Source: Ignavibacteria bacterium (GTDB taxonomy: Bacteria; Bacteroidota; Ignavibacteria; Tepidaquicellales; OLB5). Taken from it: 64,000 nucleotides of DNA. The notes beneath the pieces are model-generated. The model was not told where the DNA came from. It ran no database searches and was given only the letters and a program-made list of their open reading frames with translations. This document shows, one piece after another, positions 25,657 to 46,889 of the stretch. Every line of letters begins with the position of its first letter. Positions within the stretch are counted from its first letter, which is position 1. The stretch is from NCBI GenBank assembly GCA_017303675.1, contig JAFLBX010000001.1, forward strand, positions 879,970-943,969. The letters are read 5' to 3'. Made by a program: the position numbers and the translations under genes.

Positions 25657-27129
25657 TCAATCAATAAGCTTTTCAACAATTTTTGCCGATGAAAGCACAC
25701 CGGGCAATCCTGCACCGGGATGAGTACCCGCGCCGGCAAAATACAGGTTCTCAAAATCTTCAGAGCGGTTATGCGGACGGAACCAGGCTGACTGAGTGAA
25801 GATCGGTTCCACTGAAAATGCTGAACCAAGATAACTGTTCAGGGTACCTTCAAAATGAAGCGGATCAATATAATGTTCAGCTATTATATTTTCTTCCAGC
25901 TCAGGCAGGTATGACTCCTGAAGGAACCGCATAATTTTATCACGGTACGGTTTTGCTTCAGTACTCCAGTCAATCCCTGAACCCTGGTGCGGAACAGGCG
26001 ATAATACATAAAAACCTTCGCAGCCATCGGGAGCAATTGAGCTATCCGTTATGGTTGGCATGTGCAAATATAATGAAAAATCTTCAGCTAAAATCTTACG
26101 TTTAAATATATCATTCAGCAGCTCTTTATAGCGAGGACCCAGTATTATATTATGGTGCGCAATACTGCCGTTATTGTAGCGTTTTTTTGTACCGAAATAT
26201 ATAACAAAAAGCGACATGCTATATCGCATATTTTCAATTTTACGGTCAGAATATTTACTGCGGTATTGTTTACCTATCATATTACGGTAGGTATAGGCAA
26301 CATCTGCATTAGAAACCACAGCATCTGCGGGAATAAAAGTATTATCTTCAAGCATTATACCCGTAACTTTTTTATCTTTTACTGTTATTTCCTTTACATC
26401 AATATTGTAATGAATTTTTCCTCCAAGCTCCAGGAAAAATCTTACAAGCCCATTTACGACCGTACCCGTCCCGCCCATAGCGTAATGTATGCCCCATTCA
26501 CGCTCAAGGTAATGAATAAGCGCATAAATAGAAGTTGTATCAAATGGGTTGCCGCCCACCAATAATGGGTGGAAGGAAAAACACTCGCGCAGAAATTCAT
26601 TTTTAATGAATTTTGATGCGTATTGATACACTGTTTTGTGTGACTGCAGCTTGATCATATCAGGCACAATTTTCATCATATCGCCAAAAGTATTGAAGGG
26701 CTTATCAGCCAGCTCTACAAATCCTTTCTGGAAAATAGCCTTTGTTGTTTTGATGAAATCAAGATATCCCTGTTTATCTTCGGGACTGAATTTTTCTATC
26801 TGGCTTAAAGTAAATTCCGTATCTGAATTATAATCGAAAAATTCTTTTTTATGATTAAAGATCCTGTAGAACGGATCAAGCGGCTTTAGAGTAAAGTAGT
26901 CCTCTTTTTTCTTACCTGCCAGTGCAAAGAGCTCATCAAATAAAAAAGGGGCAGTAATAACAGTTGGGCCGCCATCAAATTTAAAGCCGTTTTTTTCATA
27001 GACGTAAGCCCTGCCCCCGGGTTTATCGCGTTTTTCAAAAATTTCCACATCATAGCCTTTGGCTGCCAGGCGTATAGCTGCGCCCAGTCCGCCAAACCCG
27101 CTGCCGATAACAATAATTTTTTTCTTCAA
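25657..27129 (-). CDS. crtI: Phytoene desaturase
   Basis: 490 residues from a TTG at 27129, reading [18 protein letters not shown]. The frame extends to a GTG at 27141, but that codon lies inside a dispersed repeat, so the TTG is preferred. [51 protein letters not shown] and [11 protein letters not shown] ... [13 protein letters not shown] are the classic CrtI motifs. It converts phytoene to lycopene in four desaturations, bound to the membrane with FAD. It follows crtYd with one dispersed repeat between. Confidence 0.93.
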
Positions 27130-27135
27130 GAATAT

Positions 27136-27185
27136 AAACACACCCCGTCACGCCTTTGGCGTGACACCCCTCTCAAGAGGGGAAT
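27136..27185 (+). repeat. Dispersed hairpin repeat, copy B
   Basis: AAACACACCCCG-GTCACGCC-TTTG-GCGTGAC-ACCCCTCTCAAGAGGGGAAT pattern as in copy A, but with CTTT in the loop. It lies inside the carotenoid operon, between the crtYd stop and the crtI start, opposite to transcription. Confidence 0.85.
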
Positions 27186-27485
27186 TTATTTTTTTAGTTT
27201 ACGGGAAAAGAATTCCCATAAAGAAATGTTCATGGTTAAAAGTGAAAAACCGTAAATAAAATCTTCTATCGGGATTGTGAACAGCCTTATACCAAGATAG
27301 AATCCCTCGCCATACTGAACAATGGGTCTCCAGGTCAAATAACCGTTCACAATAAATATCAGAACAAACATTACGCACCAAAAAATCCAGAACTTTTTAT
27401 TTACAAGAAGTTTGGTTCGTAAAAAAAAATCAAAAAACACAGCCACTACTACGGATACAAACGCAAGAATTGTGTATTCCTTCAT
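27186..27485 (-). CDS. crtYd: Lycopene cyclase subunit, CrtYd-like
   Basis: 99 residues with three membrane segments. NGYLTWRPIVQYGE (residues 47-60) and PIEDFIYGFSLLTMNISLWE (72-91) are the conserved parts of the heterodimeric lycopene cyclase domain (TIGR03462 type); PxEDFxYGF is the signature. It needs CrtYc as its partner and puts a beta ring on a lycopene end. Its ATG overlaps the crtYc stop by 4 bases (ATGA), which supports coupled translation. Assignment as the Yd half is by the order of the pair. Confidence 0.88.
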   Translation of the reverse strand: MKEYTILAFVSVVVAVFFDFFLRTKLLVNKKFWIFWCVMFVLIFIVNGYLTWRPIVQYGEGFYLGIRLFTIPIEDFIYGFSLLTMNISLWEFFSRKLKK

Positions 27486-27805
27486 TTATCCTCCGATTTC
27501 ATATTACGGGTAAAGTACTTAACGCTCTCCCAGGTAAAGAGTCCGCAAAAAGGTATGACTATAAAGAAAAGGATCTCTTCAATAGGCAGACCTAAAATTT
27601 TGAAGCCAACTGTATACAAGGGATTGAAGCTCCAGTGGCCGCGTGCTGTAACAAAACTATCCCATAAGGTAAAGATTATAAACGGTATCAGTATTGCGAA
27701 TATAAGCCGGGATGGATATCTATAAAAATCCATTTTTTTGCTGAAGCTGAGTACCAGCGGAGCAGCAATACTTACGGCGAGAACCAAAAAATATTCAGAA
27801 TGCAA
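27482..27805 (-). CDS. crtYc: Lycopene cyclase subunit, CrtYc-like
   Basis: 107 residues with three membrane segments. FTLWDSFVTARGHWSFNPLYT (key WDSF and WSFNP) and GLPIEEILFFIVIPF carry the PxEExLFF signature of the N-terminal half of heterodimeric lycopene cyclases. It works with CrtYd. The split two-gene form is best known from Actinobacteria; in Bacteroidota the lycopene cyclase is often the unrelated CrtY or a fused CrtYcd. The gene lies 4 bases from the CruF-like gene upstream. Confidence 0.88.
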   Translation of the reverse strand: MHSEYFLVLAVSIAAPLVLSFSKKMDFYRYPSRLIFAILIPFIIFTLWDSFVTARGHWSFNPLYTVGFKILGLPIEEILFFIVIPFCGLFTWESVKYFTRNMKSEDK

Positions 27806-27809
27806 TAAT

Positions 27810-28625
27810 TTATATATTATTTCCCGGAGAAATATCTGAGCCGGAGTGTTTTTTATTCTTAATTAAAATTACAGGTAATATTAAGATCACAAATAGCAGG
27901 AGCCCAAAAACTGTAATAGTAATATAATTATTGAATATGTTCACTACGGCAAAATTCACAATGTTAATAAGCATGATAATTACAGGTATCTTATACAGGG
28001 CAGAGCTGTAATCAGCATTATTATTCCATTTTATTAGCTGTGAAAACGTAAATATGAAAATAAGCCCAATTGCATACCAGCTTACAAAATTCTGCATTGG
28101 TATTGCCGATTCGCTCCAAAGCCAGAATTTATTTACAAACGCTGCGAATGGTTCGAGCAATACATCTGCAGCAAGTATGAATACCGAAGCAATTGAAATT
28201 GCGGATATTTCAGAGCTGCCTTTAAGCAGGAACCTTGCGGCAAGAAGCGAGCAGGATGAAAGTGTGAACCATGCAAACATAATTGCAAGCGGTACACCGC
28301 CTATATGCGGAGAAAGTATACCGCTATATGAATAACTGCCGAACGGAAAACCGGTGGTAACACCCCAATACTCAATGAACCATGATGCCATAAAAATTAC
28401 CGCTGTGGTGATAACAACCGAAAGAAGATCTGCCAGTTTGGTTAGGATGATGAAGGTAATAAGGGCCTCGAGCCCTAAAAAGATCGTTGTTGTCCAGAGA
28501 AATCTGCTGCCGAACTCTGTAAACATGATAATAAAGCCAAAAGGGAACATTACGATCAGGATCCCTGTGAGAATTTTTAATATTAAACCTGCTGCAGCTT
28601 TATTTTCCTGAAGTTCTGCTTGCAA
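27810..28625 (-). CDS. cruF: Carotenoid 1',2'-hydratase, CruF-like
   Basis: About 271 residues with seven to eight membrane segments. SWFIEYWGVTTGFPFGSYSYSG, PHIGGVPLAI, D-V-L-L-E-P-F-A-AF and the SW/NFVSWY stretch match the DUF422/CruF hydratase family, whose acidic and aromatic motifs add water across the C1',C2' end double bond of acyclic end groups. The product would be a 1'-hydroxy carotenoid. The start is unclear: a TTG at 28625 overlaps the upstream gene by 26 bases and keeps the first membrane helix; a TTG at 28676 and an ATG at 28550 are alternatives. Confidence 0.8.
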   Translation of the reverse strand: MQAELQENKAAAGLILKILTGILIVMFPFGFIIMFTEFGSRFLWTTTIFLGLEALITFIILTKLADLLSVVITTAVIFMASWFIEYWGVTTGFPFGSYSYSGILSPHIGGVPLAIMFAWFTLSSCSLLAARFLLKGSSEISAISIASVFILAADVLLEPFAAFVNKFWLWSESAIPMQNFVSWYAIGLIFIFTFSQLIKWNNNADYSSALYKIPVIIMLINIVNFAVVNIFNNYITITVFGLLLFVILILPVILIKNKKHSGSDISPGNNI

Positions 28626-29169
28626 TATACATATCTTTTGTTGCTTTGGATATAAAGGTTTCAAGATCGCCCTCAAGCTTATCTTTCATCTGCTCACTAA
28701 GGAATTTTTCACCCAGAACTCCCGCTAAAAAATGTATATCACTGGCTTTTTCACGTGTCATAGAAATTTTAAACAGGAATACTATCTTGGTTTTCTTTTC
28801 ACTTGGCTGGCTTAATATTCCCTGGCAGAAAAGATAATCGTTGGTTTTATCCTTTGATTCAAAAAGGAGTGTATCGCCGGAGCTTTTATCTTCTAGTACG
28901 AATGTAAGGTTATAAGGAGTAGCAAGCGGAGCTTCAACTCTGTAAAGCCACTCGCTTTCTTTATCGTTAAGCTTGCTTACGCTTACTATATTCGGAAAAA
29001 ATTTCGGATAGATCTGAAGATCTTTAATGTAATTAGCTACAAAATCCTTTTCAAGACCTATTGATGTGTTCCGTTCAACTTCTGCTGACATAGTAAAAGA
29101 TACTGTTTCTGACCGAAGGACGGAAACGCTTAATATCAAAATGGAAAAAAATATAATTATACTTTTCAT
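28600..29169 (-). CDS. Exported SRPBCC/polyketide-cyclase-like protein
   Basis: 189 residues with a signal peptide (about 1-20). The mature part opens with a START/SRPBCC-like pattern: SAEVERNTSIGLEKDFVANYIKDLQIYPKFFPNIVSV (keyed by FVANYIKD...PKFFPNI), then EWLYRVEAPLATPYNLTF. The family includes ligand-binding and cyclase-type proteins. No catalytic residue is obvious. It lies inside the carotenoid operon, overlapping the hydratase gene, so a lipid or carotenoid binding role in the periplasm is a guess. Confidence 0.6.
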   Translation of the reverse strand: MKSIIIFFSILILSVSVLRSETVSFTMSAEVERNTSIGLEKDFVANYIKDLQIYPKFFPNIVSVSKLNDKESEWLYRVEAPLATPYNLTFVLEDKSSGDTLLFESKDKTNDYLFCQGILSQPSEKKTKIVFLFKISMTREKASDIHFLAGVLGEKFLSEQMKDKLEGDLETFISKATKDMYIASRTSGK

Positions 29170-29193
29170 TAAAAATTTATTTATATAAATATG

Positions 29194-30306
29194 TTATTTA
29201 TTGTCTTCTGCGGGATTGTATACACGGCCTTTCCATTTTGCGCCTGAACCGGCTTTTATCCAGCGCCATGAATTCATGGCTATGACAGGAACCGATAATG
29301 CGCCAACGGGATGCAGAAGCGTTGAAATGATGCCAAGCTTAAACCTTGCTGAGATAATTATCCGTGTAAGATATAATATTAAAACCTGAATTCCGGTTAA
29401 AATCAGCAGAAAATTTAAGCTGAATTGCAAAGATAACTGAATAAAAAATAACAAAAAAGGAATAAAAAACAGCAAAAAATAGAGCAAATTAACAGAAAAT
29501 AGGGCAATTGAAGAAAATTCAAATCCCGCAAATATATTCTTTGAAAATCCGTTCCATATCTCCTTAAAATTCCTGTACATTCTGACACTCAGCATATGCT
29601 GGCCGTCTTCAACAATTAGCTGCAGGCCGTGCTCTTTAATTTTTCTCGCAAGCCATACATCTTCAACTATTGCATTCTTTACAGAATCATGCCCACCAAT
29701 AGCAGCGTAAGCAGACCTTTTAAAAAGCATAAAAGGCCCTATCCCGATCGAAAATTTTATGAAGCCTTTTTTATCAACAAAGTAGAACGGAAGCATCATC
29801 ATCACTGTGAACCATAACATCGGCATTACCAGCTTTTCGGCGAAGCTTACCATGGTCATTTTAGGAAATAATGTTACCATATCCGCATCTCTTTTGAGCG
29901 CAATTGTAATGGAATCACGAAGTGAGTTCTTATTATGAAGAGTATCGGCATCGGTAAACAATATGTATTCACCCGCTGAAGCTTCAAAGAGCTGTTTACA
30001 TGCAAAACATTTTCCGGTCCATCCTTTTTCAAGCGGCTTGCCGTTTAAGATTTTAAGCTGCGGATGTAACTTTTTGATATTGTGTAATATTTCACCGGTA
30101 CTGTCATCGGAATTATCATCGAGAACTATTACTTCAAATGAAGGATAATCCTGCACAAGCAATGAGTTTACTATCTGCGAAATATTATGCTCTTCGTTTC
30201 TTGCGGGTATAAGCACTGAAACAAACGGGAGTTTCTCATCATTAATTTTCGGATAGCTTTTTCTGCGGAGGATATAAAGATTCCATATGCAGATAAGCAT
30301 CAGCAC
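29194..30306 (-). CDS. Membrane family 2 glycosyltransferase, carotenoid glycosyltransferase candidate
   Basis: 370 residues, GT-A fold. VSVLIPARNEEHNI is the nucleotide-sugar loop, DDNSDDSTG and FTDADTLH (DAD metal motif) follow, GGHDSVKNAIVEDV supplies the ED base, and RMYRNFKEIWNGFSKN is an RxxR-like motif before three C-terminal membrane segments. The layout resembles CruC/CrtQ-type carotenoid glycosyltransferases. The called GTG start at 30306 cuts into the first membrane segment; the open frame goes back to a stop at 30357, so a nonstandard start such as CTG is likely. It lies between the acyltransferase and the SRPBCC gene. Confidence 0.75.
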   Translation of the reverse strand: MLMLICIWNLYILRRKSYPKINDEKLPFVSVLIPARNEEHNISQIVNSLLVQDYPSFEVIVLDDNSDDSTGEILHNIKKLHPQLKILNGKPLEKGWTGKCFACKQLFEASAGEYILFTDADTLHNKNSLRDSITIALKRDADMVTLFPKMTMVSFAEKLVMPMLWFTVMMMLPFYFVDKKGFIKFSIGIGPFMLFKRSAYAAIGGHDSVKNAIVEDVWLARKIKEHGLQLIVEDGQHMLSVRMYRNFKEIWNGFSKNIFAGFEFSSIALFSVNLLYFLLFFIPFLLFFIQLSLQFSLNFLLILTGIQVLILYLTRIIISARFKLGIISTLLHPVGALSVPVIAMNSWRWIKAGSGAKWKGRVYNPAEDNK

Positions 30307-30382
30307 GAAGAGAATAGCCGTAATTAGTATGTTGTAGTAAAGCAGAGTTTGACCTTATTGTTTAAATTATGAATATAAATAA

Positions 30383-30423
30383 TACACCCCGCCGCTTCGC
30401 AGCACTCCTCTCAAGAGGGGAAT
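30383..30423 (+). repeat. Dispersed hairpin repeat, copy C
   Basis: ACACCCCGCCGC-TTCGCAG-CACTCCTCTCAAGAGGGGAAT pattern, shorter variable stem than copies A and B. It lies between the acyltransferase stop and the glycosyltransferase start within the carotenoid operon. Confidence 0.75.
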
Positions 30424-30438
30424 ATAAGCAAAGTAATT

Positions 30439-31140
30439 TCAATCAAATGATTTGTTGCGGGAATCTTTTCCTTTAAAAATGGTTATAAAGTTTTCTGTCT
30501 TTCCGTAAACTACGTCATCCCGCAGGATGTCAAGCTGTGACTCAAGCTTACTGCGCAGCTTCTCCGGCAGGCTGCTTTCATTTTTTCCGGAAAAAATATC
30601 AGGGCTGCCGATAGATATAAATATTTCAGGCCGCTGTTCCATAAGGAATTCATACCTGAAGCAAACAGGAATAAGATATACATTCCCGGCTTTCTCTGCG
30701 ATCTTTGAAATACCTGAATAAAAATTCAGCGGGCGTTTATCCTGGGGAAACATTTCACCCTGCGGAAAAATCCAAAGGTACCTTTCACTGCCCCTGATCA
30801 AATCAGCAGCATAGCTAATTGACCTGATTGCTTCGGCAGGTTTTTCCCGGTCTACAGAAAATACACCGATGAATTTAAAGAAAGAATATTTCATCATTTG
30901 CTTAATATCCATCATAAGGTAATCATCTTTTTTCAATACGCGGTTTGTAAGAAAGTAAGCGATAAATCCATCCCACCAGTTTGAATGGTTTGCATACATA
31001 ATTACCGGCAATGAAGGATTTAGAGCCTGAATATTCTGCAGCCCGTTAATGTGAACCGCATAAAAATGCTTTTTTAAAAGCCTTTTATGGTATAAAGAGA
31101 ACAGCCTGCCAATAAATTTATTTTTTTTTGCGGTTATCAT
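30439..31140 (-). CDS. PlsC-type acyltransferase, carotenoid glycoside acyltransferase candidate
   Basis: 233 residues of the lysophospholipid acyltransferase fold. NHSNWWDG is the HX4D catalytic motif near residue 52, VDREKP follows, and FPQGEMFP is the third block. Relatives in Chlorobi-type pigment clusters (CruD) acylate the sugar of carotenoid glycosides. As the first gene of the operon and next to a carotenoid glycosyltransferase candidate, an acyl transfer to the glycoside is the best guess; phospholipid acylation is the alternative. Confidence 0.75.
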   Translation of the reverse strand: MITAKKNKFIGRLFSLYHKRLLKKHFYAVHINGLQNIQALNPSLPVIMYANHSNWWDGFIAYFLTNRVLKKDDYLMMDIKQMMKYSFFKFIGVFSVDREKPAEAIRSISYAADLIRGSERYLWIFPQGEMFPQDKRPLNFYSGISKIAEKAGNVYLIPVCFRYEFLMEQRPEIFISIGSPDIFSGKNESSLPEKLRSKLESQLDILRDDVVYGKTENFITIFKGKDSRNKSFD

Positions 31141-31304: not shown

Positions 31305-31333
31305 TTGACAAACGGAAAATAATCTGCTATTAT
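31305..31333 (+). promoter_or_regulatory. Consensus promoter A, TrmB-locus operon 1
   Basis: TTGACA (31305-31310), 17 bases, then TATTAT (31328-31333). The -10 is followed at once by the operator dyad. Near-identical in sequence, spacing and position to the promoter at 32862. It drives the plus-strand operon starting at 31415; the carotenoid operon runs the other way. Confidence 0.8.
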
Positions 31334-31358
31334 TGCCGTAGTTATACATACGGCAATA
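31331..31358 (+). promoter_or_regulatory. Operator dyad A
   Basis: TATTGCCGTA-N8-TACGGCAATA, a perfect 10-bp dyad with an 8-base centre (GTTATACA). It overlaps the 3' bases of the -10 hexamer and continues over the start region, the usual place for a repressor. The same word TGCCGTA...ACGGCA recurs at 32891 before the TrmB-like gene. Confidence 0.75.
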
Positions 31359-31414
31359 TTTAAGTTAATAAAAAATAGCTAAAATTTAAAAAATACACAT
31401 AAAAATAAGAGATA

Positions 31415-31846
31415 ATGAAATTTAAGTTAATTACAGCCATGTTTTTTGTAATTTCGGTAGCTTTTCCAATAAATTCACAATCAGTTAAAGATATGAAATG
31501 GGAATTACCATCATGTGAAATAAAGTTAACCGGGTCTATGGGTTCAGGCAATTTGCCAGGCGAAATAGAGGAAAAAGTGACAGAGAGAAATTCTGACTTT
31601 ACTTCCGCTGGTGATTTTTACAATTCAATCAACACTAATAATGTAATTGAATTCAAGCTAACAAAACCGGGATTTGTTAATATAAAAATCTATGATGCTA
31701 AAGGAAACACGATCGATGAACTGGCAAGAAGCAGTTTCAGCAAAGGTGATCACAAAGTTACCTGGAACAGCTCAAAATTTTCAGAAGGAATTTATTATTA
31801 TTCAGTTATAACCGGTGAATACTCAATAACAAAAAAATTAAAATAA
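31415..31846 (+). CDS. Small secreted protein with T9SS-like C-terminal module
   Basis: 143 residues: a signal peptide (about 1-22), a linker, then a C-terminal Ig-like sorting domain of the type IX/Por type: FKLTKPGFVNIKIYDAKGN ... GDHKVTWNSSKFSEGIYYYSVITGEYS ending in KKLK. The end lacks the usual NPFNP stretch but keeps the GIYYY and terminal Lys. Expected to be exported and attached to the surface if the cell has a T9SS. First gene of the promoter-A operon, 31 bases before the lipoprotein gene. Confidence 0.7.
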   Translation: MKFKLITAMFFVISVAFPINSQSVKDMKWELPSCEIKLTGSMGSGNLPGEIEEKVTERNSDFTSAGDFYNSINTNNVIEFKLTKPGFVNIKIYDAKGNTIDELARSSFSKGDHKVTWNSSKFSEGIYYYSVITGEYSITKKLK

Positions 31847-31877
31847 AAAATATAAAGAAATAAATTTCAAATAAAAT

Positions 31878-32588
31878 ATGAAAACAATAAATAAATCATT
31901 AAGGCTCTTTATTTCGGCAGCAATTTTAAACATTATTCCTTTTTTAATAACCGGTTGCGATATAGGGGGAGATATAGTAATTCCAAGCGGAGCAACGGAG
32001 CTTAGTGTAAACGTTAAAGCTGATGATAATATTTCAGATAATCCGGCTGATGTTGTGGTAATAACCGAAGCAAAGGCACTGATTACAGATATACAGTATG
32101 AAAGAGAAAGAGACGGGTTGAATCAGCTTCACCACACTGGACCTTATGTCATTAGCCTTGATCTAAACGGCAGCTTGAAAGAACTTATGAAAGGTTATGT
32201 TGTACGCGATATTTATACAAAGGCAAAATTCCAGGTGCATAAAGCAGAAGATGGCCAGCAGATATCAGATCCTGAGTTTATCGAAGGTACCGGTGAAAAC
32301 CAAAGATATTCATTCATAGTAAAAGGCACCTATAACGGAACGCCTTTTATATACAAATCAAAAAAATCGATGGATATTGTTATCAATTTTAACAAATCAA
32401 GCAATGTAAAGAACAAAACTCATAATTTCACAATGCTATTCAACAAAACAGGCTGGTTTAAAAACGGGACAACCGTTCTAAATCCAAACCTTCCGCAGAA
32501 TGCTGATATGATTGATAACAACATAAAATCATCATTTAGAAAAGTGTTCCTTGACGATAACAAAGATGGCGTTGCAGACGATAATTAA
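31878..32588 (+). CDS. Lipoprotein of an unnamed family, copy 1
   Basis: 236 residues with a lipobox ending LITGC near residue 27. Core motifs are VVITEAKALITDIQYE (about 58), GPYVISLDLNG, the VHKAEDGQQISDPEF stretch, RYSFIVKGTYNGTPFIYKSKK and the tail DDNKDGVADDN. The gene at 36217 has the same motifs in the same order, so they are paralogues. The DxDxDG-like tail recalls calcium-binding loops but is too short to prove it. Function unknown. Part of the promoter-A operon. Confidence 0.75.
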   Translation: MKTINKSLRLFISAAILNIIPFLITGCDIGGDIVIPSGATELSVNVKADDNISDNPADVVVITEAKALITDIQYERERDGLNQLHHTGPYVISLDLNGSLKELMKGYVVRDIYTKAKFQVHKAEDGQQISDPEFIEGTGENQRYSFIVKGTYNGTPFIYKSKKSMDIVINFNKSSNVKNKTHNFTMLFNKTGWFKNGTTVLNPNLPQNADMIDNNIKSSFRKVFLDDNKDGVADDN

Positions 32589-32612
32589 GAATAAATTTTA
32601 TCATTAAAAAAG

Positions 32613-32810
32613 GTGAATAATATTTTGAAAACATCAGAGTGGTTTAAAATCAAATTCAATTCAACTAATACATATTTTTGGATCTATAATAATGGTACAC
32701 TTGAAAGCACTAATAATAATAGAAGCAATTCAGAGCTTTTAAAGAATTACCACAGGCGTTCAATTGAAACAACGAAACAAGACTTAAAGAACAAATTAAA
32801 TAGTCAATAA
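32613..32810 (+). CDS. Small NTYFW protein
   Basis: 65 residues from a GTG start; basic, no signal peptide or membrane segment. NTYFWIYNNG in the first third aligns with NTYMWVFVNG of the small protein at 36038, so both probably belong to one tiny family placed next to copies of the same lipoprotein. GTG has AAAAAAGG upstream. Function unknown. Confidence 0.5.
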   Translation: MNNILKTSEWFKIKFNSTNTYFWIYNNGTLESTNNNRSNSELLKNYHRRSIETTKQDLKNKLNSQ

Positions 32811-32861
32811 ATTACTAAATAACAGAGATATAAGAGTTTATATATTAAATTATTTATAGTA

Positions 32862-32890
32862 TTGACAAAACAAACTTATTATATTATTAT
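32862..32890 (+). promoter_or_regulatory. Consensus promoter B, TrmB-locus operon 2
   Basis: TTGACA (32862-32867), 17 bases, then TATTAT (32885-32890), the same hexamers and spacing as promoter A, followed at once by the operator. Start codon of the regulator is at 32921, so the leader is short. Confidence 0.8.
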
Positions 32891-32912
32891 TGCCGTAGTT
32901 AAACAGACGGCA
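32891..32912 (+). promoter_or_regulatory. Operator dyad B
   Basis: TGCCGTAGTTA-AACA-GACGGCA, with 6-bp perfect arms (TGCCGT/ACGGCA) and the same centre as dyad A, but with the outer arm bases changed. It abuts the -10 hexamer. An autoregulated repressor site is the plain reading. Confidence 0.7.
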
Positions 32913-32920
32913 GAAATTCA

Positions 32921-33781
32921 ATGAAAGAAATCATCCAAAATCTCGAAGCTTTAGGGTTCACAAATTACGAATCCAAAGTATTTTGTGTGTTGTTTGAAGG
33001 AAATCTTCTGACGGCAAGCGAAATAGCAAAGAAAGCTGAAATTGCCCGTTCTTCTGCATATGATATACTTAAATCGTTTACAGAAAAAGGGATATGCAAT
33101 GAGATACAAACGAGCAGCGTAGCAAAGTATGAAATTATCGATCCGAAAGTTGTACAGGATAAGATAGAAAAAGAAATACATGATACATATGTAAGCAAGT
33201 CAACAAAACTTAAGGATTCTTTTGATAAGCTTACGCCGATCTTTAAAGCTAAGGAGCTTGAGGGGGAAAAGGTCGACGTGGAGCTTATCAAGGGATTCAA
33301 CAAACACCGCTCAGCAAAATTCATGCAGCTTTGGGAAGCATCAACAAAAGAATTATTGCTTATGAATAAGCTGGAAGTTATGGCGGATACATCAATAGAT
33401 GAGTTTACCGCTAACTTTGTTAAAAACGGCGGCATTATAAAAACAATTTATGAAGTAAGCGAAAATTTCAGGATAAATGAAGGCGGCAAATGGGTTGTGG
33501 TGGGAGCTGAAAAGCTTATAGATATTTTAAAAGAAACCGAAGGTGAAGGCGGAGAAGTTAAGCTTACTAAAAAAGTTTACCAGAACATGGCAATATTTGA
33601 CAGAAAGATAGTTTATATCAGTCTTGTTGATCCGACAGTATCAAGATACAACAGGAGTGATATTATTGTGAAGAACCAGAATTTTGCAGAGGCTATGGCA
33701 TTGTATTTTGAGCAATCCTGGCGTGATGCAGAAAAGCCGGAAGATTTTAGGGATAAATTTCTAACGGTAAACAACGGATAA
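32921..33781 (+). CDS. TrmB-family transcriptional regulator
   Basis: 286 residues. The N-terminal winged helix is TrmB-type: LEALGFTNYESKVFCVLFEGNLLTASEIAKKAEIARSSAYDILKSF (keyed by GFTNYESKVF and ARSSAYDIL). A coiled segment (85-115) leads to a phospholipase-D-like sensor domain of TrmB-type regulators (FNKHRSAKFMQLWEASTKELLLM to the C-terminus), which in other members binds sugars; the ligand here is unknown. An operator lies directly upstream and another before the operon at 31415, which points to repression of both. It is co-transcribed with the secreted protein 19 bases downstream. Confidence 0.85.
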   Translation: MKEIIQNLEALGFTNYESKVFCVLFEGNLLTASEIAKKAEIARSSAYDILKSFTEKGICNEIQTSSVAKYEIIDPKVVQDKIEKEIHDTYVSKSTKLKDSFDKLTPIFKAKELEGEKVDVELIKGFNKHRSAKFMQLWEASTKELLLMNKLEVMADTSIDEFTANFVKNGGIIKTIYEVSENFRINEGGKWVVVGAEKLIDILKETEGEGGEVKLTKKVYQNMAIFDRKIVYISLVDPTVSRYNRSDIIVKNQNFAEAMALYFEQSWRDAEKPEDFRDKFLTVNNG

Positions 33782-33799
33782 ATTAGAGGGAATATAAAT

Positions 33800-35824
33800 T
33801 TGAAGACAATTATTAAGATATTTATTGTTGCGTTACTTTTTACCCGGGGAGCCTTGATATTTTCACAGGCTTATACCTGGCAGCCTTTGGGCAGCGGACT
33901 TAATAACGGTACAAACGATACGGTAAAAGCAATTACTTCGTTTAACGGAAAAATAATTTACGGGGGAAATTTTTCTCAAGCTGGCGGGATCAGCGCACAG
34001 AACATAGCCGCTTATGACCCTATAACTAATACCTGGTCAGCATTAGGCTCGGGGGTTAACGGCGAAGTAAAAGCTTTGTTCGTCTCCGGTTCAGAATTAA
34101 TAGTAGGGGGAAGCTTTACACAGGCAGGCATTACAAATGCTAACCGTGTTGCAAAATGGAACGGTACGAACTGGTCTGCTATGGGAAGCGGCTTTGGTGA
34201 TGATGTAAATGCTTTAATAGTTTACTCAGGTAGCATTATTGCCGGCGGGAATTTTTCAATGCCGGGCGGAAATAATAATGTTGCACGGTGGAACGGCTCC
34301 AGCTGGGTCACAATGGGTAACGGACTCACCGGCAGCGGTGACAGGGTCAATGCATTCACACTATTCCAGGGCAACCTGGTTGCAGGGGGCCGGTTTGAGG
34401 AATCAGGTTCAACCAATATCAGCAATGTTGCCAAGTGGAATGGCTCAACATGGACAGCATATAAAAGCGATGAATTTGATGACGATGTAAATACGCTAAC
34501 AGTATATAATAATGAACTGTATGTTGGCGGAGATTTTACCCACATTGGCGGTAATGACAGAAGATACATTACAAAATGGAACGGTTCAAACTGGTTAAAT
34601 GTAGGCGGCGGACTTGATGACGGGCCGGTTGAAGCATTGAGTGTTTATAAGAACACACTTATTGTAGGCGGAAACTTCAGGGAAACAGGAACAGGTTTAT
34701 TTGTTGACAGAATTGCAAGCTGGAACGGAAGCATATGGGGAAGAATGCTTACCGGGCATAATGATCATGTCTACGCTCTTTATACTTATAATTCTACAGA
34801 TACAATACTGTTTACAGGCGGTGAATATTCAACAGCCGGAGGTAAATGGTGCTACAGTGCTGCAATGTGGGGAAGTTACCCCACAGTAACAGTCAGCGGC
34901 CAGGTAAGGTATGCCGATAACAATGCTGTAGTAACAGGCGGTAAGATAAAGATACTCAGAATGGATGTAATTACCAGGGAGATCATTGCCGTAGATTCAA
35001 CAATTGTTGATGCGCTGGGAAATTATACTCTGAACCGTGTACCCAGAAGAGACAGTACTTTAAGAGTAATGATATTTCCGGATGATGAATTATTAGACCA
35101 GCTTATTGATACAGGTTTTGTACCGACTTATTACCCGTCAACAATTCAATGGCTTACAGCCGGTGTATTATACGCAAATACGAATTTAAGCAGCATTAAT
35201 ATTAATGTGATCAGAAAAAATGCTTTTTCAGCAGCCGGCAGCATTGCTGCAAATATTGGCGGTTACGCATATTTAAACATTATGCCTGAGCTTCCCGGTA
35301 CTGGATTTCCGTTCCTGAAAGGTTCAGTTGTTTATCTTAAAAAAGATACCAGCATGGTAAGCTTTGCAGTCACAAACGAAAACGAGCAGTATACTTTTCA
35401 GAATATACCGCCGGGAAATTATTCATTAACAGTACAAAGGCTGGGATATGAAACTGAAACCAGGCAGGTAACAGTAGGTTCGGTAAACCTGGATACAGTA
35501 AATTTTTACCTGGATACTATGAATGTAATAGGGATCGTGAATATCAGTTCAAATATTCCTGATAACTTCAGTCTCGGGCAGAACTTTCCGAATCCGTTCA
35601 ACCCTGTAACCAGGATCAGGTTTAATATCAAAAACTCAGAATTTACCGAGCTTAAAATTTTTGATATGCTTGGCAGGGAAGTAAAAACACTGGTAAGTGA
35701 AAACTTAGCGGCAGGCGAATATGAATATTCATTTAACGCTTCATCACTTCCAAGCGGCGTATATTTTTACAGGCTAAATGCCGGGAATTATTCAATGACA
35801 AGGAAAATGGTTCTTATCAAATGA
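33800..35824 (+). CDS. Secreted beta-propeller protein with T9SS C-terminal domain
   Basis: 674 residues, TTG start with AGAGGG 9 bases upstream. After the signal peptide (1-23) come about six propeller repeats of 45 residues (IIYGGNF, LIVGGSF, IIAGGNF, LVAGGRF, LYVGGDF, LIVGGNF). Two beta-sandwich carboxypeptidase-regulatory-like domains follow (about 370-440 and 480-580). The last 85 residues are a T9SS sorting domain: GQNFPNPFNP ... IFDMLGREVKTL ... SGVYFYRL ... RKMVLIK. Likely exported and surface bound. It is the second gene of the regulator operon. Confidence 0.85.
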   Translation: MKTIIKIFIVALLFTRGALIFSQAYTWQPLGSGLNNGTNDTVKAITSFNGKIIYGGNFSQAGGISAQNIAAYDPITNTWSALGSGVNGEVKALFVSGSELIVGGSFTQAGITNANRVAKWNGTNWSAMGSGFGDDVNALIVYSGSIIAGGNFSMPGGNNNVARWNGSSWVTMGNGLTGSGDRVNAFTLFQGNLVAGGRFEESGSTNISNVAKWNGSTWTAYKSDEFDDDVNTLTVYNNELYVGGDFTHIGGNDRRYITKWNGSNWLNVGGGLDDGPVEALSVYKNTLIVGGNFRETGTGLFVDRIASWNGSIWGRMLTGHNDHVYALYTYNSTDTILFTGGEYSTAGGKWCYSAAMWGSYPTVTVSGQVRYADNNAVVTGGKIKILRMDVITREIIAVDSTIVDALGNYTLNRVPRRDSTLRVMIFPDDELLDQLIDTGFVPTYYPSTIQWLTAGVLYANTNLSSININVIRKNAFSAAGSIAANIGGYAYLNIMPELPGTGFPFLKGSVVYLKKDTSMVSFAVTNENEQYTFQNIPPGNYSLTVQRLGYETETRQVTVGSVNLDTVNFYLDTMNVIGIVNISSNIPDNFSLGQNFPNPFNPVTRIRFNIKNSEFTELKIFDMLGREVKTLVSENLAAGEYEYSFNASSLPSGVYFYRLNAGNYSMTRKMVLIK

Positions 35825-35879
35825 TAATTATATCTTCAATAAATTAATAACTTAATAGTTAACTAGGGGGAATACTATT

Positions 35880-36029
35880 ATGGATCTTAATTCAGTAATC
35901 ATCAAATCTTTTAAAAACATTTTATTTGCACTCGCAGTACTTGCTATGACACTTCCTATACTGCTTTCAATGCCCGGTTTTTCAGGGTATATAGTCAACG
36001 CTTTAAGCGTTTTAGGAATAGGGGAATAA
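35880..36029 (+). CDS. 49-residue small membrane protein
   Basis: ATG 35880 to TAA 36029, 49 residues, with one strong membrane helix (FALAVLAMTLPILLSMPGFSG; key span residues 16-36). The upstream sequence CTAGGGGGAAT is a good ribosome site 9-10 bases before the ATG. The next gene starts 8 bases later, so it belongs to the operon. No family recognised. Confidence 0.6.
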   Translation: MDLNSVIIKSFKNILFALAVLAMTLPILLSMPGFSGYIVNALSVLGIGE

Positions 36030-36037
36030 AAAAGAAA

Positions 36038-36220
36038 GTGACAATTAAAGCAAAATGGGATAAGCTTTACCAGAGGGATATAAACACCTATATGTGGGTG
36101 TTCGTAAACGGGAGAATGTTCGTGATTAACGAGGCAGAATATGAACATAAAAAAGAAAAATTAAACAAGAAAATTTATGATGAACTGGTCATAAATAAAG
36201 AAAAAGAGAGGAACAAATGA
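36038..36220 (+). CDS. Small NTYMW protein
   Basis: 60 residues, highly charged, from a GTG start; NTYMWVFVNGRM matches NTYFWIYNNG of the 65-residue protein at 32613. A Lys-rich helix follows. Its stop overlaps the ATG of the lipoprotein gene by 4 bases (ATGA), so translation is probably coupled. Function unknown. Confidence 0.55.
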   Translation: MTIKAKWDKLYQRDINTYMWVFVNGRMFVINEAEYEHKKEKLNKKIYDELVINKEKERNK

Positions 36221-36936
36221 ACACACAAAAAAAATCTATAGGTACAACCATATTGCTGGGCATATTATTTATAGTTTTACTGGCATTTACTTCAGGCTGC
36301 GGCGATAGCAGCAGTGTTACAAACTCAAACGGAACCGGAAATTCAACCGATAATACAAGCTTAAGCGTTAAGCTTGATGAAAGCGTTACCGGCGCAAACT
36401 ACCCGGTAATAACCGAAGCCAAAGCTCTTATTACTGAAATTGAGCTTGAAACAGAACCTTCAGGCATCAGCCAGGAGATCAGGATATCACCGGTTGTGAT
36501 ATATTTTAACACAGGCGGGCAGGTAATTTCCGTAACAGCAGCGAACCTTCCTTCAGGTACGTGGAATAAGATCAAATTACAGATACATAAACCGGAAGAT
36601 ACTGAGCCGATACCTGACCCTGAATTCCGTGAAGGAACTAGCGGCAACCAGAGGTATTCATTTATCATAAAAGGTACATATAACGGCAATGCCTTTGTTT
36701 ATAAATCGAGGAAACGCGCTGATATAATAATAAATCTAAGCACACCGCTTACAACCGGCAACGGTTCAAGGAATATAACATTACTGGTTAATCCTTCATT
36801 GTGGTTTATGAATAACGGTAATGTGCTTGACCCCGCAAATTCTTCAAATGATGATCTGATAGATGATAATTTAAAGAATTCGTTCAAACGCGGATTCAGG
36901 GATGATAATAAAGATGGTAGACCTGATGATAACTAA
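36217..36936 (+). CDS. Lipoprotein of an unnamed family, copy 2
   Basis: 239 residues; lipobox FTSGC near residue 29. PVITEAKALITEIELE, ISPVVIYFNTGG, LQIHKPEDTEPIPDPEF, RYSFIIKGTYNGNAFVYKSRK and a tail of FRDDNKDGRPDDN match the copy at 31878 throughout. Last intact gene of the TrmB operon. A 3'-end remnant identical in its final 16 codons but for silent changes lies 52 bases downstream. Function unknown. Confidence 0.75.
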   Translation: MNTQKKSIGTTILLGILFIVLLAFTSGCGDSSSVTNSNGTGNSTDNTSLSVKLDESVTGANYPVITEAKALITEIELETEPSGISQEIRISPVVIYFNTGGQVISVTAANLPSGTWNKIKLQIHKPEDTEPIPDPEFREGTSGNQRYSFIIKGTYNGNAFVYKSRKRADIIINLSTPLTTGNGSRNITLLVNPSLWFMNNGNVLDPANSSNDDLIDDNLKNSFKRGFRDDNKDGRPDDN

Positions 36937-36992
36937 ATCGTATTAAGTTTATCCCGCTATGCAGAAAAGCGGGACCAGCAAAAAACGCTGGA

Positions 36993-37041
36993 ACGCGGCT
37001 TCAGGGATGATAATAAAGACGGCAGACCTGATGATAATTAA
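36993..37041 (+). pseudogene. Duplicated 3' tail of the lipoprotein gene
   Basis: This 48-base stretch reads CGCGGCTTCAGGGATGATAA..., repeating the last codons of the gene at 36217 (RGFRDDNKDGRPDDN, stop) with only four base changes, three silent. It stays in frame with a preceding short sequence (TLE) that has no match. It looks like the surviving end of a third family member, or a local duplication. Confidence 0.7.
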
Positions 37042-38412: not shown

Positions 38413-39180
38413 ATGAAAATTTTATTAACCGTATTGTTCTTAACCAGCTTTACCGTACATTCGCAGGATATTAAGAAATACTTCGATGAATATGATGTTA
38501 CAGGTTCATTTATGGTATATGATATGTACGCAGATAAATATTATTATTATGATTCATCACGCTGTTTTACCCGTTTTACGCCTGCCTCAACATTCAAAAT
38601 ACCCAACAGTATTATTGGTTTAGAAACAGGTGTTATAGCCGATGAAAATTTTATTATTCCCTGGGACGGAACCAAAAGCAGGGAAACCTGCGATAAAGAC
38701 CTGACACTGAAGGATGCGATCAGGTTTTCCTGTGTTTGGTATTATAAAGAGCTTGCGCGAAGAGTAGGCGCAGATAAAATGCAGGAAATGCTGAATGCCT
38801 TCAATTACGGGAACATGGATATTTCAAGCGGTGTTGATAAATTCTGGCTGGAAGGCAGCCTGAAAATTTCGCAGGCTGAACAGATCGAATTCCTGAAGAA
38901 GCTATATAAATATGAGCTTCCGGTTTCAAAAAGATCAGTTGATATATTAAAGAACATAATTATGCTTGATTCAACCGCAGACCATATTTTACGCGGAAAA
39001 ACTGGCTGGGGTTTTGAACGCAATAAAAATATAGGGTGGCTGGTTGGGTGGATAGAAAAAAGCGACAATATATATTTTTATGCTATAAATATAGAAACAG
39101 AAAAAGATAATCCGCGTTTTGCTGAATCAAGGCGGGCAATTACAGAAAAAATATTCAGGGATCTCGGAGTAATTAAATAA
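38413..39180 (+). CDS. Class D (OXA-type) beta-lactamase
   Basis: 255 residues with a signal peptide (about 1-17). Active-site set is complete: S59-T-F-K62 (acylating Ser and carboxylated Lys), S106-C-V (SxV, here with Cys), Y132-G-N134, K196-T-G198 and the GWLVGW strand. FWLEG near 144 holds the Trp that stabilises the lysine. Hydrolysis of penicillins is thus plausible, but many environmental OXA-like proteins have weak activity or act as sensor-like proteins; not tested here. It starts 21 bases from the methyltransferase, divergently, and precedes the SDR gene by 3 bases. Confidence 0.9.
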   Translation: MKILLTVLFLTSFTVHSQDIKKYFDEYDVTGSFMVYDMYADKYYYYDSSRCFTRFTPASTFKIPNSIIGLETGVIADENFIIPWDGTKSRETCDKDLTLKDAIRFSCVWYYKELARRVGADKMQEMLNAFNYGNMDISSGVDKFWLEGSLKISQAEQIEFLKKLYKYELPVSKRSVDILKNIIMLDSTADHILRGKTGWGFERNKNIGWLVGWIEKSDNIYFYAINIETEKDNPRFAESRRAITEKIFRDLGVIK

Positions 39181-44795: not shown

Positions 44796-46889
44796 ATGAA
44801 AATAACTAAAAGAATAATTTTAACACTACTTCTGGCGGCTTCAGCGGTTTATCCGCAGACATGGGAATGGGTAAATCCCAAACCGCAGGGTAACAATCTC
44901 CAGTCAGTGGTAATGAACAGCAACACCGAAGGTTTTGCCGTTGGTATGCTTGGAACAGTTATGAAGACAACTGATATGGGAAGCAACTGGCAGGTATTGA
45001 ACGTACCCACCAAAAAACACATGTATGATATAACATATTCATGGTTAAATGATGTTTTTGCATGCGGCGATAGCGGTACGGTTATAAACACATGGAATCT
45101 TGGCGGTAACTGGGCTGTTACACAGACCCCGGTAACAACATCTTTAAGGGGAATTTTCTTTCCTTCCAGGGATACAGGTTTTGCAGTCGGCTTTGGCGGG
45201 AAAATTGTACGCACCACAAACCAGGGTGCGGGCTGGCATTTGATCACGGTGCCATATACCAGGAATTTTAATGCCATACATTTTATCAATAAAACAACCG
45301 GATTCATAGCCGGCGATATGGGATTTTTTGCTAAAACAACAACTTCAGGTCTTACCTGGGATACAGTTTCTACCGGAACGACATCATCACTATTCAGGAT
45401 GTATTTTAATACTCTTGGAACAGGTTACATTGTTGGTACACAGGGCAGAATACTGAAAACCACAAATTTCGGAACAACATTTGAATCAAGTATTTCCATA
45501 ACTACATCAGGTCTCTACGATGTATCATTTGTGGGAAATTTTGGTGCGATCACAGGCGAGCAGGGCGCTATATGGACAACAACCAACGGCGGTGTAAACT
45601 GGACTCCGGTTTATTTCGGGCACACACCATTCAGAGGAATAACTAATAATTTTACTAACAGCTTTATTGCCGTTGGAGAAGGCGGAAAAGTATATACTTC
45701 AACAAACGCAGGTACAAACTGGGTGGGGAAAGTTACTTCCCAAACGGGTACAATCTATTCCAGCGCTTTTGCAGACGCAAATACTGGGTTTATCGGCGCA
45801 TTTGGCAATAAATTTCTTAAGACAACCAACGGCGGAGAAAACTGGACTGAAATTCAGAGTTTAATCAGTTCTTACATTTATGAACTCAAATTCCTAAACA
45901 GCCAGTTTGGATACGGAATTCATTCAAGCGGGTATTATATAAAAACAACCAATGGCGGCGCAAACTGGCAGGGAAATCAAATAGCTGCAGGAATGTACGG
46001 TTGGTCAATTCATTTCACTTCAACTTCCAGCGGTTATGCTGTCGGGGATCCAGGAAAAATATACAGAACAACCAATGGCGGAGATAACTGGACAATTTCC
46101 ACACACACCTCAAATGTTTATTTGACAGGTATAAGCTTTGTTAACGATAATACAGGTTTTATAACAGGTCACAATGGTTTGGTCTTAAGAACAACAAATG
46201 CAGGAAACAGCTGGGATTCGCTTGCAACCGGAACGACTTCAATTTTAACAAAGGTCGTTTCTAATCAAAACGGTGTAATTCTGGTATCAGGTATTTTCGG
46301 CAGAATTATGAAATCAACTAACCTTGGCAATAACTGGGTATCAACCACAGGGTTAACACCATTTACAATCAATGATGTGAAATTCCTGAATAATAATACC
46401 GCTTATGCTGTGGGTTCTGGCGGAGAGTTGTTTATATCGCACAATGCAGGCGATACATGGGTAAAAGAACAGTCAAAATCAGGAAATATTATCAGGACTT
46501 TAAGTATAGTATCACCTTCAAAGCTAATGCTATTTGGCGAAGAAGGTAACATGCTTAAATATACCCCTGATCTTACATCAACCGGAAATGGCAATAATAA
46601 TATGCTGCCTGCAACTTATGCACTTCAGCAGAACTTTCCGAACCCGTTCAATCCTTCAACAAATGTTAAGTTCACAATTCCTTCAGAAGGTAATGTAAGG
46701 CTTACAGTATTTGATATAACGGGCAGGGAAGTGAAGACCCTGATAAATGAAAAAATGCCAACAGGCAGCTATGAAATAGCATTTGACGGCACCGGGATTT
46801 CATCAGGCGTATATTTCTACAGGCTTGATGTAATATCAACAGGCGGTGTAAGCTTCAGTGATACAAAGAAAATGATACTCGTAAAGTAA
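44796..46889 (+). CDS. Ycf48-like propeller protein with T9SS C-terminal domain, paralogue 1
   Basis: 697 residues, signal peptide 1-20. About twelve repeats of the Ycf48/Hcf136 type, each with a (T/S)TNxGxNW Asp-box-like motif (KTTNGGENW, RTTNGGDNW, KTTNGGANW) and FxNxNTGFIxG strands; the repeats form one or two beta-propellers. A sorting domain follows: NFPNPFNPSTNVKFTIP ... VFDITGREVKTL ... SGVYFYRLD ... KKMILVK. Thus a secreted or surface protein, not a photosystem factor. In operon order before its paralogue. Confidence 0.85.
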   Translation: MKITKRIILTLLLAASAVYPQTWEWVNPKPQGNNLQSVVMNSNTEGFAVGMLGTVMKTTDMGSNWQVLNVPTKKHMYDITYSWLNDVFACGDSGTVINTWNLGGNWAVTQTPVTTSLRGIFFPSRDTGFAVGFGGKIVRTTNQGAGWHLITVPYTRNFNAIHFINKTTGFIAGDMGFFAKTTTSGLTWDTVSTGTTSSLFRMYFNTLGTGYIVGTQGRILKTTNFGTTFESSISITTSGLYDVSFVGNFGAITGEQGAIWTTTNGGVNWTPVYFGHTPFRGITNNFTNSFIAVGEGGKVYTSTNAGTNWVGKVTSQTGTIYSSAFADANTGFIGAFGNKFLKTTNGGENWTEIQSLISSYIYELKFLNSQFGYGIHSSGYYIKTTNGGANWQGNQIAAGMYGWSIHFTSTSSGYAVGDPGKIYRTTNGGDNWTISTHTSNVYLTGISFVNDNTGFITGHNGLVLRTTNAGNSWDSLATGTTSILTKVVSNQNGVILVSGIFGRIMKSTNLGNNWVSTTGLTPFTINDVKFLNNNTAYAVGSGGELFISHNAGDTWVKEQSKSGNIIRTLSIVSPSKLMLFGEEGNMLKYTPDLTSTGNGNNNMLPATYALQQNFPNPFNPSTNVKFTIPSEGNVRLTVFDITGREVKTLINEKMPTGSYEIAFDGTGISSGVYFYRLDVISTGGVSFSDTKKMILVK

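Follow-up and report, generated by a model that had tools for sequence, protein, structure and literature searches.

A TrmB-like regulator and its putative operator dyad in a recurrent surface-protein cassette of Ignavibacteria

Two adjacent operons at positions 31,305 to 37,041 of a 64,000-nucleotide stretch from an Ignavibacteria bacterium (assembly GCA_017303675.1, contig JAFLBX010000001.1; the whole stretch is called the window below) begin with the same promoter followed by nearly the same inverted repeat, and the second is headed by the gene of a TrmB-like one-component regulator. We propose, with a probability of about 0.8, that the TrmB-like protein uses this dyad as its DNA operator, through which it would repress its own operon and control operon 1, and that the locus belongs to a family of such cassettes. 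Self-regulation together with control of operon 1 had been suggested in a first-pass annotation of this DNA and is supported by comparison across the genus and the family; what that annotation missed is that, judged from related genomes, cassettes of this type are widespread and the locus does not stand alone.

Results

The promoter and dyad units

Operon 1 encodes a 143-residue protein with a sorting tail of the type IX secretion system (T9SS), lipoprotein A and a 65-residue protein; operon 2 encodes the TrmB-like regulator, a 674-residue propeller protein, small proteins of 49 and 60 residues, and lipoprotein B. As first described, the promoters at 31305 and 32862 are identical in both hexamers and in spacer length, and each is followed directly by the dyad:

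31305..31333, forward strand: promoter of operon 1 (TTGACA-N17-TATTAT), with TTGACA at 31305-31310, a 17-base spacer and TATTAT at 31328-31333; read from the sequence, and retained in 10/10 extra-operon promoters of the genus
31333..31356, forward strand: putative operator dyad 1, TTGCCGTAGTTATACATACGGCAA, directly 3' of the -10 and expected to span the transcription start
31334-31355, forward strand: core of dyad 1, TGCCGTAGTTATACATACGGCA, read from the sequence
32862..32890, forward strand: promoter of operon 2 (TTGACA-N17-TATTAT), with TTGACA at 32862-32867, a 17-base spacer and TATTAT at 32885-32890; from the sequence and the genus comparison
32890..32913, forward strand: putative operator dyad 2, TTGCCGTAGTTAAACAGACGGCAG, 7 bases 5' of the regulator start codon
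32891-32912, forward strand: core of dyad 2, TGCCGTAGTTAAACAGACGGCA, read from the sequence

The layout in both units is TGCCGTA-N8-ACGGCA with no gap after TATTAT, and the last base of the -10 hexamer already belongs to the dyad, as its first base. The claim that the two dyads are the same stands for the presence of both sites; the second is imperfect, its right arm reading GACGGCA. A search of the window with up to two mismatches returned four matches, namely the two sites on both strands, where shuffled sequences gave 0.22 on average and 2 at most. In the whole genome (3.65 Mb, up to three mismatches) the window's two sites were the only ones, and no wider regulon with this word was found outside the locus within that limit. 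The exact TTGACA/TATTAT pair with a 17-base spacer occurs five times in the genome, and the hexamers by themselves are therefore ordinary; the promoter pair together with the dyad is not.

Conservation within the genus

We compared 13 genomes of the window's genus, which includes Chlorobi bacterium OLB5, now under Ignavibacteriota, Candidatus Tepidaquicellales. The dyad search yielded 19 sites in 10 of the 13 genomes, against at most one match per genome for the reversed pattern. Ten genomes hold the orthologous regulator, and in all ten the operon-2 dyad is kept, directly after the -10; across the locus, every operon with an assembled beginning starts with the same promoter and dyad (20 copies). 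The search of the genome and its relatives that had been proposed as a check thus came out in favour of the proposal, and relatives that keep the operons and lack the dyad, named beforehand as a case that would speak against it, were not found. Over the 20 aligned copies, conservation is 99% in the -35 and 88% in the -10, compared with 63% in the spacer and 54% in the upstream flank; the arms, being part of the search pattern, are not counted as evidence.

The number of operons attached to the regulator varies. A second operon with its dyad is present in the window and in G002, G005, G008, G010 (there on a contig of its own, which ends after the dyad) and G012, and G006 has three further dyads, each ahead of a surface-protein gene set. 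In G011 (L219) genes of the operon-1 type lie downstream of operon 2 with a single dyad ahead of all, and G004 (L221) has one dyad and no operon 1. Operon 1 and its dyad lie at a contig end in G003, in whose assembly the regulator was not found, and the contig of G001 begins near a T9SS gene before the regulator, with the beginning of any extra operon out of sight. No such operator was found in G007 (only 64% complete) or G009, both without the orthologous regulator. Operon 1 has other content in L212 and L214, where the -35, the -10 and the dyad are still kept. The flanking genes in most genomes with spanning contigs are PlsC-like on one side and methyltransferase-like on the other.

At 5011, 10092 and 12421 of the reverse-complemented L214 locus (G006) there are three near-identical promoter/operator copies (TTGACAAATGAAA...), each preceding surface-protein genes, a pattern suggestive of recent operator spread by duplication.

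A family of cassettes in one order

The regulator family comprises roughly 100 Ignavibacteria genes, four of them in the window's genome. Members were found in 38 of 44 genomes belonging to the order, and in none of 15 that represent other orders of the class. The related loci come from metagenome-assembled genomes named Ignavibacteria. The three paralogues in the window's genome are 38-43% identical to the regulator, and each has its own dyad behind its own -10 and, as the next gene, that of its own T9SS-tailed CarboxypepD_reg protein.

When palindromes were scored without an anchor anywhere in the upstream region, true sites were not cleanly separated from chance repeats in AT-rich DNA: arms of at least 8 pairs were found in 46/83 members versus 9.5% of shuffles, and in the window another match scored higher than the imperfect dyad. 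Since AT-rich repeats blurred this score, it was replaced by a test for a dyad anchored to the -35 (at least 7/9 pairs at a fixed distance). Such a dyad is present in 51 of 83 members, versus 4.1% in shuffles, and in 17 of 33 representatives below 70% identity, versus 3.9%. The gene that follows the regulator is nearly always that of a T9SS-secreted surface protein, usually a beta-propeller: where it is complete, 67/74 carry a T9SS tail, as compared with 29/255 flanking open reading frames, and the next genes of L054 and L147 end in a typical T9SS tail though the strict test missed both. Of 31 divergent partners searched with Pfam, 28 have the sorting tail and 23 have CarboxypepD_reg; matches to different propeller or BNR families also occurred.

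Dyad words change with the recognition helix

The half-site word varies by subfamily and tracks the recognition helix of the regulator. Helix ARSSAY goes with CCGTAG (10/10), IRNSIY with CAGTAG (15/16), LRNSIY with TAGTAC (3/3), PRPSVY with TTGTAG (3/3), IRTSIY with TCGTAC (2/2), HRTDVY with TAGTGG (2/2) and IRGSIY with CTGAAC or CTGAAG; RRTDVY has mixed words, mostly TATTAG and TAGTAG. In a slightly favourable set of 76 members, which leaves out those with fewer than four pairs and includes seven operators assigned by eye after the automatic rule had missed them, operator distance correlates with distance in the helix (r 0.39), in the rest of the helix-turn-helix (HTH) domain (0.53) and in the C-terminal domain (0.37). 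With the C-terminal domain corrected for, the helix still has an effect (partial Mantel r 0.27, p 0.0005), as it has when the remainder of the HTH is corrected for as well (r 0.17, p 0.001). The association between dyad word and recognition helix is thus closer than relatedness in the C-terminal domain would predict. Moreover, genome-wide searches found the operators of the three paralogues once per genome, ahead of their own gene, and GTATTAG-type operators before TrmB-like regulator genes only. Two cassettes of one genome have the same left half-site in 3 of 62 pairs; between genomes, orthologues included, the figure is 10%.

The regulator resembles TrmBL2

The assignment of the gene behind the second unit to the TrmB family holds: PF01978, the TrmB-type DNA-binding domain, is matched with 53 bits (cut-off 25.6) and is found in 27/27 family members. 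The 286-residue protein consists of a winged HTH (recognition helix IARSSAYDILKSF), a coiled-coil helix and a phospholipase-D-like (PLD-like) C-terminal domain without an HKD motif. Within helix 43-55, Y47 is invariant in 27/27 members, and residue 48 is D in the window protein and D, E, N, P, S or T in the others; the Tyr/Asp pair of the recognition helix (Tyr50/Asp51 in Pyrococcus furiosus TrmB) is present by an equivalence drawn through the profile offset to 5box. A palindromic operator at the promoter or transcription start, as is usual in the TrmB family, is likewise predicted here.

A profile of the 27 members matches TrmBL2 over its full length (1.4e-13) and TrmB in the N-terminal third only. 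The AlphaFold2 model (mean pLDDT 81.6, pTM 0.56), in which the orientation of the domains is uncertain, aligns with TrmBL2 (PDB 5box, 5bpd) at Z 15.6 (VIA) over 248-249 residues, with an rmsd of 7.7-15 that is large because of domain orientation. The modelled C-terminal domain resembles PLD-family domains, among them that of NucT (Z 13.9, 2.9 Å, 136 residues) and the effector domain of TrmB, 2f5t (Z 11.4, 3.0 Å, 130 residues). The HKD motif (HxKx4D) was found in none of the family members, so that enzymatic activity of the PLD-like domain is unlikely, and a ligand-binding domain would be the natural reading. The sugar-effector domain PF11495 matched neither the window protein (E 0.1) nor any of the 27 members (0.001). 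Since TrmBL2 likewise lacks the 70 residues that hold the sugar-binding domain (PMC4158304), sugar sensing is not to be assumed, and the part for sugars in the tests first suggested is not supported. The architecture is that of TrmBL2: a TrmB HTH and a PLD-like C-terminal domain, with no sugar-binding extension.

Gene content of the locus

31415..31846, forward strand: 143-residue secreted protein with a T9SS sorting tail (TIGR04183, 32 bits, cut-off 23; PF18962)
31878..32588, forward strand: lipoprotein A, 236 residues, lipobox-like start; 42% identity to lipoprotein B
32613..32810, forward strand: small protein of 65 residues, weakly similar to the 60-residue protein; orthologues in the same place
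32921..33781, forward strand: TrmB-like one-component regulator, 286 residues (PF01978, 3.2e-14; TrmBL2 profile match, 1.4e-13; model and fold searches)
33800..35824, forward strand: 674-residue surface protein with a beta-propeller (Rax2-like), two CarboxypepD_reg stretches and a T9SS tail (Pfam, NCBIfam)
35880..36029, forward strand: hydrophobic protein of 49 residues, its place conserved in the genus; orthologues 53-92% identical
36038..36220, forward strand: small protein of 60 residues; orthologues in the same place, weak similarity to the 65-residue protein
36217..36936, forward strand: lipoprotein B, 239 residues, C-terminal end DDNKDGRPDDN; orthologues, and identity to lipoprotein A
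36985..37041, forward strand: remnant of a lipoprotein C-terminus (RGFRDDNKDGRPDDN, stop), not a gene; read directly from the sequence

The content is as first claimed with regard to the surface proteins and the lipoproteins, the latter being clear paralogues (42% identity over 241 columns). Two tiny proteins are also present, and their proposed paralogy rests on a weak similarity (35% over 23 residues, E 2e-5 in a single comparison); the 49-residue protein of operon 2 had not been named. The sorting domain (TIGR04183/PF18962) scores 48.8 bits in the propeller protein and 32 bits in the 143-residue protein, both above the cut-off, and SprA of the T9SS is encoded in the genome; on these sequence grounds both proteins qualify as T9SS cargo. 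At least 150 T9SS tails are encoded in the genome. Elsewhere in the window, neighbouring genes at 44796-46889 and 46923-49007 encode T9SS-tailed proteins of 697 and 694 residues without the dyad, possibly tandem paralogues.

Directly downstream of the lipoprotein B gene, the 57-base remnant at 36985-37041 copies its coding end, a vestige of a duplication that took place earlier. Copies of this lipoprotein family are numerous outside TrmB cassettes (for example G009:C167, G012:C26 and G011:C128), several of them with one in-frame stop (TAG, TAA or TGA) and perhaps decaying or misassembled. By eye only, a class D beta-lactamase-like motif (STFKIPNS) was seen in the protein of 38413-39180, and a carotenoid-synthesis-like cluster at 25657-31140, comprising a CrtI-like dehydrogenase, small membrane cyclase-like proteins, a glycosyltransferase and a PlsC-like acyltransferase.

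Discussion

Comparison of genomes establishes, at the level of sequence, a candidate operator, its position, its restriction to the cassettes, its covariation with the recognition helix and its partner genes. In the mechanism that we propose, a dimer of the regulator would bind TTGCCGTAG-N7-(T/G)ACGGCA-type DNA. As the dyad extends from the last -10 base to 7 bases before the regulator start codon, the bound dimer would occupy the start region; it would begin at the last -10 base, cover the transcription start and block RNA polymerase. TrmB-family proteins repress from sites at or downstream of the promoter (PMC4158304). Because the regulator heads operon 2, it would repress itself along with the propeller protein, the small proteins and lipoprotein B, and operon 1 would be repressed through the second copy of the same promoter and operator. 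A signal, probably bound by the PLD-like C-terminal domain, would release the regulator, upon which the T9SS-exported and the lipid-anchored surface proteins would appear together. Operon 1, and in G006 the further operons, would be satellites of the negative autoregulation at operon 2. Helix and operator would have changed together across the family, leaving the cassettes of one cell mostly without cross-talk. We infer repression and not activation, a transcription start inside the dyad, a releasing signal and a role at the cell surface.

That the regulator binds the dyad and mainly activates, or acts in a dual mode according to site position, is unlikely. TrmB-family proteins do activate from sites upstream of the promoter, while repressing at or downstream of it (PMC4158304), but the operators of the present family sit where such proteins repress, on or after the -10, and the promoters have a near-consensus -35 and -10, for which a helper is not needed. 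Nor is it probable that the likeness of promoters and dyads is only left over from a recent duplication of operon 2 into operon 1, with operon 1 not functionally regulated. The lipoproteins and the small proteins are indeed paralogous; the lipoproteins, however, are down to 42% identity, whereas the -35, the -10 and the dyad are nearly identical genus-wide amid unlike spacers and flanks, and these elements persist where operon 1 holds other genes (L212, L214).

An inverted repeat located between a promoter and a start codon can fold as RNA, and the dyad might then be an element of the 5' leader (a hairpin, an attenuator or an RNA-binding site) and not a DNA operator. We consider this very improbable: because the -10 ends one base inside the dyad, transcription is expected to start in the left arm or loop, a position from which no whole hairpin would be transcribed; the dyad word follows a DNA-recognition helix; and no Rfam family matched. 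The least credible of the alternatives, with nothing specific in its favour, is that another, unlinked regulator binds the dyad and controls both operons, given that each paralogous TrmB gene has a word of its own tied to its own helix, and that G007 and G009, without the orthologue, are also without the sites.

Several points weigh against the dyad being the operator of the regulator throughout a cassette family. The statistic on partner genes has a background of about 10%. Arm conservation is partly built in, as the arms served as the search pattern when sites were collected. Most of the covariation is common to the whole HTH and to ancestry, and the Mantel tests leave some phylogeny in. In the subfamily with helices RRTAVY or RRTSVY the arms are weak and asymmetric, and the next gene sometimes encodes a 140-146-residue protein and not a T9SS protein. 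In a distant TrmB group (25-30% identity), set apart from the family, the dyad was looked for and is absent.

Other words were seen in both of these groups. Eight RRTAVY/RRTSVY loci (L052, L056, L059, L062, L064, L068, L073 and L077) have a TGCAATATTGCA palindrome over the -10; in this subfamily a further block, ACAACAATATTGCA-like, lies at the start codon, and in some members the 140-146-residue exported protein replaces the large T9SS protein. L157, L161 and L162 of the distant group have in common a word like TTGTATCACNNCNNNNGGGGAGACAA about 75 bases before the start, possibly an operator of their own.

TrmB regulators are known, and so are start-site autoregulation and regulators adjoining surface proteins. 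In Bacteroides, the local regulators of polysaccharide utilisation loci adjoin the genes of the surface proteins under their control, as the present regulator adjoins those that it would control. The hybrid two-component regulators of those loci (PMC11253607) are membrane sensors, in contrast to the cytosolic one-component TrmB-like protein here, and no enzymes or SusCD pair are seen at the present locus. PorXY-SigP of Porphyromonas gingivalis also bears on type IX secretion, but controls the secretion machinery (PMC4800418), whereas single cargo cassettes would be controlled here.

By profile and by fold, the best full-length match is TrmBL2 of the Thermococcales (5box, 5bpd), with the same winged HTH, long helix and PLD-like C-terminal domain and, as in the present protein, no sugar-binding extension. 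TrmBL2 is an abundant chromatin protein with many coding and intergenic sites (PMC4158304); the present regulators, in contrast, appear to have few defined operators per genome, beside the regulator gene. With the Thermococcales sugar regulators TrmB, TrmBL1 and Tgr they have in common the DNA-binding domain family PF01978 and palindromic sites at the promoter or start. Known sites there are TACT-N3-AGTA and TATCAC-N5-GTGATA, autoregulation was proposed for Tgr, and the recognition-helix Tyr matters (PMC4158304). Unlike those regulators, the present family, found here in one Ignavibacteria order only, is without a detected PF11495 effector domain, and would act on lipoproteins and T9SS surface proteins instead of on sugar uptake. 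TrmBL4 of Thermococcus barophilus is a TrmB-family regulator connected to secreted proteins through a changed secretome; it is archaeal and tied to sugars and ABC transporters, and the abstract of that study describes no adjoining surface-protein cassette (PMC10667668).

The first-pass statement that no system of such content had been described needs dividing: the components are all of known kinds, and no description of insulated, repeated cassettes that combine a TrmBL2-like regulator with T9SS cargo was found in the searchable literature, most subscription journals lying outside it; within the same bounds, no work linking TrmB with Ignavibacteria, or the TrmB family with type IX secretion, was found.

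The proposed arrangement would give the TrmB-like family a specific bacterial role, the paired control of exported surface proteins. With a site word per subfamily, the pairing of regulator and site is open to direct test, and some 75 natural helix/operator pairs from one protein family would be enough for reading a DNA-specificity code and for testing how cross-talk between paralogous regulators is avoided. More tentatively, and on balance doubtfully, the several cassettes of an Ignavibacteria cell may be mutually insulated surface-protein switches, in each of which the PLD-fold regulator would sense a signal fitted to the surface protein of the same cassette; if so, helix, operator, sensor domain and propeller would evolve as a unit, and the cell would choose which surface protein it displays. 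As the Ignavibacteria are nearly uncultured, the cassettes would show which surface proteins have a control of their own and indicate where to seek the signal.

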